From: Natrinema longum
Lineage (GTDB): Archaea > Halobacteriota > Halobacteria > Halobacteriales > Natrialbaceae
DNA: 64,000 nucleotides
NCBI RefSeq assembly: GCF_017352095.1
Contig: NZ_CP071463.1
Location: 2,728,001-2,792,000 of the forward strand
Direction: 5' to 3'
The notes below the pieces were generated by a model. That model was not told where the DNA came from, did no database searches, and saw nothing but the letters and a program-made list of their open reading frames with translations. The translations under genes were made by a program, and so were the position numbers. This document shows, piece after piece, positions 29,697 through 34,328 of the stretch; position 1 is the first letter of the stretch, and each line of letters opens with the position of its first letter.

Positions 29697-29777
29697 CGAC
29701 AGTGTCGTCTCGTCACAGTCGACCGACTCGAGAGCGGGACACTGTCGATCGATCGCCCCCTACCCAACAATGTAGGG
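29697..29777. promoter_or_regulatory. Two palindromes upstream of the H-NOX operon
   Basis: CGACAGTGTC (29697-29706) is perfectly inverted as GACACTGTCG (29738-29747), and CCCTAC (29758-29763) as GTAGGG (29772-29777). Both lie between the start of the AIR-synthase-like gene and the TATA-like element at 29793-29803 in front of the H-NOX unit. They are plausible operators or hairpins, and neither has an assigned factor. Confidence 0.35.
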
Positions 29778-29819
29778 AAAGCAATTAAACAGGAATAATT
29801 ATAATAGAGGTTTTCAGTC

Positions 29820-29891
29820 ATGAGTTCTGATTCGGACCGAATAGGGATCGCCGGGGGAACGGAAAAAAGAGGGGTCATATGCACGGAATAA
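29820..29891 (+). CDS. Short leader reading frame overlapping the H-NOX start
   Basis: 23 codons from the ATG at 29820, about 20-25 bases after the TATA-like ATAATTATAA, to TAA at 29889-29891, 13 bases inside the H-NOX gene. The H-NOX ATG has its own ribosome-binding sequence AGAGGGG (29868-29874). The peptide begins MSSDSDRIGIAGG and is not recognised. It may couple or tune H-NOX translation. Confidence 0.35.
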   Translation: MSSDSDRIGIAGGTEKRGVICTE

Positions 29892-30544
29892 TTCTGAAGA
29901 CGCTGCAGGCGTTCGTCGTGGATACCTACGGCGAGGACGCCTGGCTCGCGATTCAGGATCGGGCGGACATCGAGGAGAAAGTCTACGTTCCCGTCACCGT
30001 CTATCCGGACCGCGACGTCTACGAGATCGCGCGGACGGCCGGCGAGCTCACGGATCAGAGCCCGCGGACGATTCTGACCCAGTACGGCACGTGGGTCGTC
30101 CCCGCACTGCTCGAGACCTACGACCTCCACATCGACGACGAGTGGGAGGGGTTAGAGCTCATCGCGAACATCCAGCAGTTCCACACGTCCCTGCGGACGC
30201 GGGATATGACGACGTTGACGACGCCGCGAATTCGCTCGGAGCGAATCGACGACGATCGGGTCCGGATCACCTACGACTCGGATCGAAAGCTCTGTGATGT
30301 CGCTCGCGGTGCGATTCAGGGCGTCGCCGAGCGGTTCGACGAGGAACTGATCGCGGAGGAGCGAACGTGTATGCACGAGGGCGACGACGCGTGCCAGTTC
30401 GATATTCGACGAGCCGCGACTCCCGGAGCCACGCCCGTGGCGGAGTCGGAATCGGACGCGAACGCCGCCGACGAGACGGGATCCGCGTTCGAATTCGACT
30501 CCCGATCGGCGACCGATGCCTCCAGTGGGGAAACGAATGACTGA
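29879..30544 (+). CDS. H-NOX (haem nitric oxide/oxygen-binding) sensor
   Basis: Haem-based gas sensor, probably cytoplasmic. The 221-residue product opens MHGIILKTLQAFVVDTYG, typical of H-NOX, with the proximal haem ligand His102 (in QQFHTSLR) and the propionate-binding Y-x-S-x-R motif as Tyr132-Ser134-Arg136. These fall almost exactly at the positions known from bacterial H-NOX (102 and 131-135). The domain ends near residue 176, and the last 45 residues are an acidic disordered tail. Its stop overlaps the start of a methyl-accepting transducer by eight bases, so the sensor should signal to that transducer. Which gas binds (NO, CO or O2) cannot be read reliably. Confidence 0.9.
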   Translation: MHGIILKTLQAFVVDTYGEDAWLAIQDRADIEEKVYVPVTVYPDRDVYEIARTAGELTDQSPRTILTQYGTWVVPALLETYDLHIDDEWEGLELIANIQQFHTSLRTRDMTTLTTPRIRSERIDDDRVRITYDSDRKLCDVARGAIQGVAERFDEELIAEERTCMHEGDDACQFDIRRAATPGATPVAESESDANAADETGSAFEFDSRSATDASSGETND

Positions 30545-32153
30545 GTCCGCAAGCGCAGCCGGGGGCTCGTCGCTCCCGTCCGCGATCCAGTCGGGGAGTC
30601 CGGTCGGGTTCGGCTTCGTGATCGCGGTCGTCGGACTGATCGTCGTGGCCGCCGCCGCCGCCGCTCTCGGGGAGCTAACCCCGACGGTTCTGGGCATCGG
30701 TGCCGGCGGCGTCGTCGCGGCCACCGTGGTCGGGACGTCGATCGCTGCAGTCTCGGACGTTCGCGCTGCACCGCGCCAGCGCGAGGAACTCCGCGAGGGG
30801 ATCGCCGACGTGGCCGAGCGGACGGCCCGTCTCGAGGACGGAGCGTACGACGTCTCCTTCGCGACCGACCGTGAGGACGAGCTGGGCCGACTCGAGGGCT
30901 CACTCGCGGGGATCCGGAACCAGCTCGCGGCGAGCGAGCAAACGGATCGGTCGCTGGACGAACTCGAGAGCACCGTCTCGGCACACGCCGAGACGACGCG
31001 GGCGGTCGCAGCGGGCGATCTCACGCGTCGATTCGATCAGCACGGGACCCACGACGCGTTCGACGAGTTGGCCAGCAATTCCAACGCGATGCTCGCGGAG
31101 TTCGAGGACACCTTCGGGACGCTGAAGTCGTTCTCCGGCGAGGTCGTCACCTACAGTCGCGAACTCAAAACGAGTATGGAGACGGTTCAGGCGGAAGGCG
31201 AGCGCACGAGCGAGGCGCTCACCGAGGTCGTCAGGGACAACAGGGAGCAAAACGACCAACTTCGGAGCGTCGCGACCGAGATGGAGTCGTTCTCGACGAC
31301 GATCGAGGAGATCGCCGCGACGGCCTCGGAAGTCGCGGACACCGCGGATCAGACCGCCAGAGCCGGGCAGGACGGGAGCAGTGCCGCCAGCGACGCGATC
31401 GAGGGTATGGACGTGATCGATAGGGAGAGCGAACGAACGCTCGAGGAGATCGAGGCGCTCGAGGCCGAGGCCGAACGGATCGACGAACTCGTCGATTCGA
31501 TCAGCGACATCGCCGAGCAGACGAACATGCTGGCGCTCAACGCCAACATCGAGGCGACCCGATCGGACGAGGGCGGCGGCCAAGGCTTTGGCGCGGTCGC
31601 CGACGAGATCCAGAACCTCTCCGAGGAGGTCTACGACTCGGTCCAGGCCGTCGAGGAGCGCCTCGAGGGGCTCAAACAACGGGCGATGTCGGCGGCCGAC
31701 GAGGTCCGAACGAGCCGCGACCGAATCAAAGGGAGCGTCGCCGACGTCGAGGAGGCGGCGAACGCGCTCGAGCGGATCGCGACCCTCGCCGAGCGGACGA
31801 ACGACGGCGTCCAGGAGATCTCCGCGGCGACCGAAGAGCAGGCCTCGGCGACCGAGGAGGTCGTCGTTCTGGTCGAATCCGCCGCCGAAACGAGCGACAA
31901 GACGGCCGAGACCTCCGCGAGAGCGGCCCGCCGAGCCTCGGCACAGGCCGATGCGCTCTCCCACGTTGCCCGCAGCGCCACCGTGCTCACCGAGCAGGCC
32001 AGCGAGTTGAACGCCCAGCTCGAGCGCTACGTCACGGAGAGCGGCTACGACCTCCCCGAAGCGCGGACGGCCGATGACGTGGATCCGGAGGCAGTGTCGA
32101 CCACCGATTCGGTGCCGGAGACGATCGGAGACGGCGGGAGCGGATCCCGATAG
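30537..32153 (+). CDS. Methyl-accepting transducer paired with H-NOX
   Basis: A 538-residue chemoreceptor-like protein. Two membrane segments (about residues 19-42 and 45-65) with almost no external loop are followed by a HAMP-like region (about 67-165) and a long coiled-coil signalling domain. The kinase-contact hairpin is intact as EQTNMLALNANIEA, followed by GFGAVADEIQNLSEEV. It has no extracellular sensor domain, so input must come from the membrane, the cytoplasm or a partner. The overlapping H-NOX gene supplies that partner. Output would be the CheA/CheW array for taxis or another response. Confidence 0.88.
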   Translation: MTESASAAGGSSLPSAIQSGSPVGFGFVIAVVGLIVVAAAAAALGELTPTVLGIGAGGVVAATVVGTSIAAVSDVRAAPRQREELREGIADVAERTARLEDGAYDVSFATDREDELGRLEGSLAGIRNQLAASEQTDRSLDELESTVSAHAETTRAVAAGDLTRRFDQHGTHDAFDELASNSNAMLAEFEDTFGTLKSFSGEVVTYSRELKTSMETVQAEGERTSEALTEVVRDNREQNDQLRSVATEMESFSTTIEEIAATASEVADTADQTARAGQDGSSAASDAIEGMDVIDRESERTLEEIEALEAEAERIDELVDSISDIAEQTNMLALNANIEATRSDEGGGQGFGAVADEIQNLSEEVYDSVQAVEERLEGLKQRAMSAADEVRTSRDRIKGSVADVEEAANALERIATLAERTNDGVQEISAATEEQASATEEVVVLVESAAETSDKTAETSARAARRASAQADALSHVARSATVLTEQASELNAQLERYVTESGYDLPEARTADDVDPEAVSTTDSVPETIGDGGSGSR

Positions 32154-32238
32154 CAGCGTCGCCCGGTCGCTCGAAACCGGGTGGCCGCTTTCGGAGCGAA
32201 CGAGCAGTTTTACGGCCGCGTCGTTCGTGGCCCCCTGC

Positions 32239-33138
32239 ATGCAGGGAACTGGTGTCCCGATCGTCACGCCGTTCGATTCGTCCGGCCGCGTCGATTACGC
32301 GCGGCTTCGAAGCCTCGTCGACTGGCTCGAGGAAGCCGGCGTCGATTTCCTCGTCCCCTGTGGATCGTCGGGCGAGGCACCGCTGTTGACGGCCGACGAA
32401 CGGGTCGAGATCGTCGACACCGTCGCGGAGGCCACCTCGCTGTCGGTGCTCGCGGGAACCGGATGGGAGGGGTACGAGCCGACGCTCGAGACGACCGAGC
32501 GCGCCGCAGCGGCGGGTGCAGAGGCGGCACTGGTCGTAACTCCCTCCTACTACGGCTCCGACGACGCGGCGCTTGCCGCCTACTACCGATCCCTCGCCGA
32601 CGAGTCACCGATTCCGATCTACCTGTATAGCGTTCCGAAGTTCACCGATCACGCCCTCTCGCCACGGACCGTCGCGTCCCTCGCCACCCACGAGAACGTC
32701 GCGGGGATCAAAGACTCGAGCGGGAGCCTCGAATCCGTCCAGCGGCTCGTCCGTCTCACCGCCGACGAGTCCTTCGCGGTGCTCGTCGGCAGCGGGAGCA
32801 TCTACGCGGCCGGCCTCGATGCGGGTGCCGACGGCGGTGTACTGGCGCTGGCGAACGTCGTCCCCGGACGGGCGAGCGGGATCTATCGTCGCCACGAGGA
32901 CGGTCGATCCGAGCGGGCACGATCACGGAACGCCGACCTCGTCGAACTCAACCACGCCGTCACGACCCAATACGGCGTGCCGGGGCTCAAAGCCGCCCTC
33001 TCGTTGCGGGACCAGCCGGCGGGCTCGCTTCGGCGACCGCTTGAGCCCCTCGCGGGGACGGCTCGCGATGAACTCGATTCGGTACTCGCGGACGCCCTCG
33101 AAGCGACGGACTCGACGAACCCGGATTCGTCGACGTAA
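32239..33138 (+). CDS. DapA/N-acetylneuraminate lyase family aldolase
   Basis: Schiff-base aldolase or synthase with a TIM barrel, 299 residues. GSSGE (42-46) binds the carboxylate, Tyr130 is the general acid/base and Lys158 in GIKDSSG forms the Schiff base. Homologues include dihydrodipicolinate synthase and 2-keto-3-deoxy-gluconate aldolase. Sequence alone does not decide, and no lysine-pathway gene lies nearby. The ATG at 32239 starts the conserved TGVPIVTPF strand. The frame is open further upstream without homology. Confidence 0.85.
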   Translation: MQGTGVPIVTPFDSSGRVDYARLRSLVDWLEEAGVDFLVPCGSSGEAPLLTADERVEIVDTVAEATSLSVLAGTGWEGYEPTLETTERAAAAGAEAALVVTPSYYGSDDAALAAYYRSLADESPIPIYLYSVPKFTDHALSPRTVASLATHENVAGIKDSSGSLESVQRLVRLTADESFAVLVGSGSIYAAGLDAGADGGVLALANVVPGRASGIYRRHEDGRSERARSRNADLVELNHAVTTQYGVPGLKAALSLRDQPAGSLRRPLEPLAGTARDELDSVLADALEATDSTNPDSST

Positions 33139-33224
33139 CCGAAATCACACGTCGGACACCGGGGAACGAAACTCGGAGTGGTTACTGCCAAGAGTCAAGA
33201 TGTCGGCACCCATAGCGGGGATAG

Positions 33225-34328
33225 ATGGCGTACTCGCTCCGAGTGGGGACGGAATTCGACCTCGAGTTCTCCGTCAGCGAACTCACCGGCGCGCTAGGTG
33301 ATTCGGTTACTGTCTTGCCGCTGGTGGTTGCACTCGGTGCGACGACGAGCGTCTCGCTTCCCCACGTCCTGCTTGGTTTTGGCGTCTTCCAGATCGTCTG
33401 GGGGCTCTACTACGGCATGCCCCTCTCCGTCGAGCCGATGAAGGCACTGATCGGCCTCGCGATCGTCGGGACGCTTTCCTACGCCGAACTCGCCGCGGCC
33501 GGGATACTCGCCGGCGGCGTCTTGCTCGCCGTCGGCCACCTCGGGCTCGTCGGTCGCCTTCAGCGGGTGGTCGGCGAACCCGTTATTCGCGGCGTCCAAC
33601 TCGCCGTGGCGCTGCTCTTGCTCGAGGCGGCCGTCGATCTCTCGCTTGGAAACCCTTCCGTAGCGGTGGCCGGTCTGGTCGTCGTCGGGCTCCTGGCGCT
33701 GGTCGGCTACTGCCAGGCGAGCGTCCTGGTCGTGCTCGGAGTCGGCGGGATCGCTGCCGTCGTGACGGCCGGGATCCCCTCGCCGGCGGTCCCCCAGCTC
33801 ACCCTCTTTCCCGCCGGTATGCCGTCGGTTACCGCGGCCGCACTCGAGGGGACCGTCGCCCAGCTCGGGATGACCGTCGGGAACGCGGCGATCGCGACCG
33901 CACTGCTCTGTGGCGAACTCTACGACCGAGATATCTCCGCGGACGAACTCTCGAGGAGTATGGGCGTCACCTGTCTCGCGGCGGTCCCCCTCGGCGGCGT
34001 GCCGATGTGTCACGGCAGCGGCGGCCTCGCCGGCAAGTACGCCTTCGGCGCGCGAACCGGCGGCGCGAACGTCCTGCTCGGGGTGGGCTATCTCGCGCTC
34101 GCGTTGGTCGCCGCCGGAGCCGTCCTCGCCGCCTTCCCGATGGCGATCCTCGGCGTCTTGCTCGTCGTCGTCGCACTCGAACTCGGGCGCGCGGCGTTCG
34201 CGCCCGTCAGCGACGGTCGCTCCCTCGCGCTCGTCGCGGGCGTCGGGATCGTCGGCCTCGTGGGCAACGTCGGCGTCGCGTTCGTCCTCGGCACCGTCGC
34301 GTTCTGGTCGCTCTCACGGCGGCCGTGA
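33225..34328 (+). CDS. MOT1-like molybdate/sulfate transporter
   Basis: A 367-residue membrane protein with about ten segments. The repeats ELTGALGDSVTVLPLVVAL (near residue 20) and GGVPMCHGSGGLAGKYAFGA (near residue 258) are the two signatures of the MOT1 molybdate transporter family, related to SulP carriers without the STAS domain. Molybdate or sulfate uptake is expected. No molybdopterin gene is adjacent. Confidence 0.85.
   Translation: MAYSLRVGTEFDLEFSVSELTGALGDSVTVLPLVVALGATTSVSLPHVLLGFGVFQIVWGLYYGMPLSVEPMKALIGLAIVGTLSYAELAAAGILAGGVLLAVGHLGLVGRLQRVVGEPVIRGVQLAVALLLLEAAVDLSLGNPSVAVAGLVVVGLLALVGYCQASVLVVLGVGGIAAVVTAGIPSPAVPQLTLFPAGMPSVTAAALEGTVAQLGMTVGNAAIATALLCGELYDRDISADELSRSMGVTCLAAVPLGGVPMCHGSGGLAGKYAFGARTGGANVLLGVGYLALALVAAGAVLAAFPMAILGVLLVVVALELGRAAFAPVSDGRSLALVAGVGIVGLVGNVGVAFVLGTVAFWSLSRRP

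Follow-up and report, generated by a model that had tools for sequence, protein, structure and literature searches.

The stretch of DNA under study, a window of 64,000 nt from Natrinema longum, lies on the single 3.59 Mb contig of genome G000; G204 is a sister genome of the same species, and each of the two is at least 99.8% complete. Two overlapping genes on the forward strand of the window were analysed. The first (29879..30544) encodes an H-NOX (haem NO/O2-binding) protein of 221 amino acids, identified by the HNOB profile and a fold match, and the second (30537..32153) encodes an MCP transducer of 538 amino acids, identified by its signalling domain, a conserved ATG and an alignment with its homologues (A2). 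The H-NOX stop and the MCP start share the 8 nt ATGACTGA (30537..30544). An ATG at exactly this 8-nt overlap with the H-NOX stop is found at all 17 nearest-clade loci, that is, the window and 16 related loci, and in two further relatives the MCP ATG overlaps the H-NOX stop by 4 nt. The overlap with a transducer gene that had been predicted for this locus is thus real and conserved, but the MCP start had been placed at 30516; because the ATG with the 8-nt overlap is kept in the nearest-clade loci, position 30537 is the most likely start. On the same strand after the pair (window 32229-34328) lie genes for a dihydrodipicolinate-synthase-family protein and a MOT1-type molybdate transporter, which are not common to the pair loci of other families. 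About 115 nt upstream of the H-NOX gene, TACCCAACAATGTAGGG (window 29762-29778) is partly conserved in congeners and may belong to either divergent gene. A palindrome near 29833, ATTCGG-A-CCGAAT, was considered as an operator candidate upstream of H-NOX and rejected, as it is not conserved in the genus.

The first protein is a true H-NOX by sequence profile, fold and haem-pocket residues, in agreement with the original prediction of an archaeal H-NOX. It scores 117 bits against Pfam HNOB (PF07700; cut-off 25.5), its closest solved relative is the Shewanella H-NOX (E 6e-14), and its AlphaFold model matches 4u9b with a TM of 0.87 (normalised by target; E 1e-12). The V4R profile also matches the C-terminal part; HNOB and V4R are the only Pfam matches, and no PAS domain was found. 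The domain is folded over residues ~1-178 and is followed by an acidic tail with low model confidence from about residue 184. In an alignment of 35 proximal-His homologues (A1), the predicted proximal haem ligand His102 (codon 30182..30184) and the haem propionate motif Y132-x-S134-x-R136 (30272..30286), both previously proposed as haem-binding residues, are invariant, as is P116. The counterpart of a zinc-type site is formed by C139, E161, C164 and C172 (30293..30394); the three cysteines are invariant in A1 and E161 is kept in at least 90% of the sequences.

The transducer carries a PF00015 signalling domain (31383..31883; 94.4 bits, cut-off 34.6) with the kinase-control tip IAEQTNMLALNANIEATR (31509..31562), which is near-invariant in A2. 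A HAMP-like segment (30801..30908) matches PF00672 with 18.7 bits, below the curated cut-off of 25. Hydropathy and a low-confidence structure model place two membrane helices at MCP residues 22-43 and 49-72 (30600..30752), and the loop between them comprises only about 5 residues, which leaves no ectodomain. This model is poor (pTM 0.36) and served for helix boundaries only. The architecture thus bears out the description of a transducer with two membrane segments, HAMP-like and signalling parts and no external sensor. No che genes adjoin the window MCP. Among the relatives, the H-NOX gene at L072 overlaps a gene for an MCP-like protein with HAMP-like and coiled-coil parts that lacks the kinase-control tip (L072:4994-6395). 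The H-NOX-linked MCPs at L070 and L068 lack a membrane segment, which fits a cytosolic input, and their tip is a variant one (AQRTNVLALNANIEASR).

HNOB proteins were found in 85 of the 394 sampled Halobacteria genomes. Among 104 HNOB genes examined, 44 encode the proximal His and 60 do not, and the His-less proteins form a single clade in the tree (support 98). Downstream sequence could be read at 40 proximal-His loci, and at 32 of them the next gene downstream is an MCP or MCP-like gene. This count includes the window, L053, where the contig ends within the MCP, and L072, so that 31 haloarchaeal loci besides the window have the arrangement and one of their MCPs is without the signalling tip. 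No MCP gene directly follows any of the 60 His-less paralogues. The association between the His and the MCP has a Fisher p of 5e-19, a value that overstates independence: the tree shows essentially a single loss of the His, which is one event and not sixty. The adjacent MCP is absent at 8 proximal-His loci.

Conservation of the pair extends over five haloarchaeal families. When the window locus was compared with seven loci outside its close kin (L070, L050, L032, L071, L034, L060 and L065), the only genes in common were those for HNOB and/or MCP. The sister genome G204 has two proteins 95% and 97% identical to the window pair; together with the conservation across families with differing flanking genes, this identity puts the pairing far beyond chance. 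In a tree with 31 further MCPs from these and related genomes, the H-NOX-linked MCPs (29 rows, five families) form one clade with a support of 96; a single transducer lineage has thus accompanied H-NOX. The operonic coupling of H-NOX to an MCP lacking an external sensor, as envisaged in the original prediction, is supported by the conserved 8-nt overlap and by the conservation of the pair across families.

Several further features of the HNOB proteins were noted. The second HNOB protein of G000 (L125:4945-5592; G000:C1:1940201-1940677) lacks the proximal His and has Tyr at that column, and visual inspection suggests a PRPP-synthetase-like gene upstream of it. The clade of 60 haloarchaeal His-less proteins mostly keeps the YxS/TxR motif and the three cysteines; its members are possibly haem-free redox sensors. 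A PNPOx-like (flavin-type) gene adjoins the proximal-His H-NOX at two unrelated loci (L054:5586-6680 and L032:3751-4395).

In three families the pair is joined to a che operon of its own, namely f3 (L032, L071), f4 (L050, L058, L061) and f6 (L034, L059). At these loci CheW comes after the MCP gene, and the cluster also holds CheA and CheC-like genes. Both CheY and CheD were confirmed in f6, and CheY was also seen in f4. The H-NOX genes occur as tandem pairs at three loci. The Halocatena genomes G278 and G183 have no CheW-domain protein apart from the CheW and CheA encoded in the H-NOX operon, and at the threshold applied G278 has a single MCP. A search for archaellin gave no match in either Halocatena genome; each has one lower-scoring ArlD/E-like match. 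Outside Halobacteria but in the same phylum, family f16 has the gene order MCP-CheW-CheY-CheX-CheB-H-NOX-CheA, and its H-NOX is a distant branch in which the zinc-type cysteines are absent. Taken together, archaea may have a dedicated H-NOX chemosensory pathway for NO or oxidants, in which H-NOX, sometimes in tandem, would act with its own MCP, CheW, CheA and CheC/CheD. The pathway would be ancient in Halobacteria, another archaeal family would have a distinct second version, and the window pair would be a stripped-down form feeding a shared CheA. The output of the pathway would not be swimming, because species that lack archaellin retain it and because no further chemosensory system was found in Halocatena. 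As one joint claim, this proposal stands about evenly balanced. In both f4 and f6, a truncated (bacterial-like) globin gene adjoins the H-NOX che operon and is encoded on the other strand (L212:8791-9186 and L209:6385-6762).

The pair had also been suggested to serve gas-taxis, which is doubtful in the window species. Searches for archaellin (PF01917), ArlD/E (PF04659) and CheF (PF04283) gave no match in G000 or G204, whereas the same ArlD/E search was positive in five congeners and in Haloferax. Archaellum genes are present in many pair-bearing relatives, and ArlD/E is absent from 11 of the 21 pair-bearing genomes of family f1. The absence of CheF alone was discarded as an archaellum marker, since the archaellin-bearing genomes G330, G235 and G179 are also without a match. 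The lack of all three matches in G000 and G204 makes swimming unlikely as the output here. CheA is retained in both genomes and G000 has two CheA clusters. PilB3- and PilC-like genes are found a few kb away from the main one (CheR, CheD, CheC, CheA, CheB, CheW). The signal in the window species thus probably controls a process other than swimming, and this gene neighbourhood hints at a possible type IV pilus-based or other surface output. The second chemosensory cluster of G000, MCP-CheW-CheA-CheC (L224:776-12576; G000:C1:2320775-2332575), adjoins the gas-vesicle genes GvpF/L, GvpH and GvpK, and a chemosensory control of buoyancy is possible.

In some H-NOX proteins a distal tyrosine, Tyr140, binds O2. 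At the column that we take to be its equivalent, matched through the spacing from YxSxR in the T. tengcongensis numbering, none of the 44 proximal-His homologues has Tyr; V, L, F, W or I is found instead, and the window protein has V141. A missing distal Tyr marks the NO-selective H-NOX proteins (PMC8738867; PMC12329717), and its absence from all homologues suggests NO as the likeliest ligand. Two NirK genes in G000 could supply NO, and both these and the truncated globin genes beside the che operons of f4 and f6 are compatible with NO. NirK co-occurrence was dropped as support for this ligand, since the enrichment in pair-bearing genomes is not significant (21/32 versus 189/362, p 0.2). The zinc ligands of Shewanella H-NOX are Cys139, His161, Cys164 and Cys172 (PMC7108781). 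The window protein keeps the three cysteines and has Glu161 at the fourth position, where the subgroup has His or Gln.

Based on these observations, the two genes probably encode one bipartite chemoreceptor resembling CetB/CetA, with H-NOX as the sensor, NO as its likely ligand and a non-swimming output. The soluble H-NOX would bind haem through His102, and the haem would bind a diatomic gas, most likely NO. The ligand-bound H-NOX would then change its shape and act from the cytosol on the neighbouring MCP, regulating it positively or negatively. This MCP would provide only the membrane anchor and the signalling rod, whose tip would control the CheA kinase. In the window species CheA would probably govern not swimming but another process, for instance surface behaviour that depends on type IV pili.

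The main rival concerns the signal and not the architecture. The site of three cysteines and Glu161 is similar to the redox-active zinc site in the Vibrio and Caulobacter H-NOX proteins, and the same bipartite receptor might sense oxidation, with the zinc-type thiols of Cys139, Cys164 and Cys172 forming disulfides that switch H-NOX and the haem being secondary. Haloarchaea live exposed to light and oxidant stress, and the three cysteines are as invariant in the aligned proximal-His homologues as the haem residues. Moreover, the Caulobacter H-NOX inhibits its kinase only upon cysteine oxidation and not upon NO (PMC12329717), and a haem-free H-NOX of Vibrio cholerae is switched by oxidation (PMC7108781). 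On the other hand, the fourth position of the site is Glu and not His or Gln. Furthermore, the MCP-linked group has fully kept the haem residues, whereas the clade of unlinked paralogues has lost them and retains the cysteines in most members (52/60), so that MCP linkage tracks the haem ligand and not the thiols, although this rests on one loss event. We therefore consider oxidation sensing unlikely, while giving it more weight than any other alternative.

O2 as the signal, in an aerotaxis sensor as proposed for the MCP-fused H-NOX of obligate anaerobes, would agree with the O2 binding of the known H-NOX-MCP fusions (PMC8738867), but the missing distal Tyr in 44 of 44 homologues makes it highly improbable. 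Hardly more credible is a classical gas-taxis in which the pair steers archaellum-driven swimming relative to NO or O2 in the window species. The canonical MCP tip, the presence of che genes and the archaellum genes of many pair-bearing relatives would suit it; the results for G000 and G204, two nearly complete genomes, contradict it unless the archaellum genes are divergent or lie on an unsequenced plasmid, and the lack of ArlD/E in about half of the pair-bearing f1 genomes also speaks against it. Finally, the two genes might merely be co-transcribed, with H-NOX acting on another target and making no contact with the MCP. This would account for the 8 proximal-His loci without an MCP, one of which has an overlapping PNPOx-like gene instead. 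It is the least probable of the readings, given that the pair is common to families with otherwise different neighbours, that the linked MCPs form a single clade and that che operons accompany the pair.

The proposed bipartite receptor, with H-NOX acting on the MCP, shares parts with several known systems. The Shewanella oneidensis H-NOX (SO2144; PDB 2KII, 4U99, 4U9B) and other NO-type stand-alone H-NOX proteins have the same fold, the proximal His, the Pro, YxSxR, the three zinc-type cysteines and a stand-alone domain, and they likewise lack the distal Tyr. Their partners are histidine kinases or c-di-GMP enzymes, whereas the window partner is an MCP, and the window protein differs in its Glu at the fourth zinc position, its acidic tail and its archaeal host. 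H-NOX linked to MCPs is already known in bacteria (PMC9311577; PMC8738867). In the fusions of obligate anaerobes (Thermoanaerobacter/Caldanaerobacter tengcongensis, clostridia) H-NOX also feeds an MCP, but these are single polypeptides with Tyr140 that bind O2, in contrast to the two Tyr-less proteins here. CetB/CetA of Campylobacter jejuni and CetBA2 of Magnetospirillum (PMC12442639) combine a small soluble sensor with a membrane-linked transducer that has no sensory domain, and the CetBA2 genes overlap as those of the window do. Since CetB is a PAS protein (with FAD in CetB2) and the window sensor is an H-NOX, the pair would work like CetB/CetA without being a member of that family. In haloarchaea, SRII/HtrII, BasB/BasT and CosB/CosT also use a separate receptor protein that acts on an Htr transducer (PMC3579733), but they sense light or externally bound solutes and not through a cytosolic haem protein. 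HemAT, the globin-coupled aerotaxis transducer of haloarchaea, senses with a cytosolic haem (PMC9680633), yet its globin is fused to the MCP in one protein and its ligand is O2.

In the literature reviewed, stand-alone H-NOX proteins are partnered with kinases or c-di-GMP enzymes and the H-NOX-MCP combinations are O2-binding fusions in anaerobes. Within the open-access literature, no paper was found on H-NOX in haloarchaea or on haem NO-binding together with archaea, and a census of archaeal chemoreceptors (PMC9680633) does not mention H-NOX; a census based on MCP domains would miss stand-alone sensors that act in trans. If the reading is true, an NO-type stand-alone H-NOX that signals in trans to an MCP would connect a much-studied sensor in a new way, and this would be the first proposal we have found of an NO-sensing route into archaeal chemosensory arrays. 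Halocatena would offer a simple test case with one MCP and one CheA per genome (MCP count from G278). Outside archaea, the Myxococcota H-NOX genes at L154, L155 and L157 adjoin a stressosome-like set, in which Pfam assigned STAS, STAS, HATPase and SpoIIE domains at L154, and here H-NOX is a possible gas or redox input to the stressosome.
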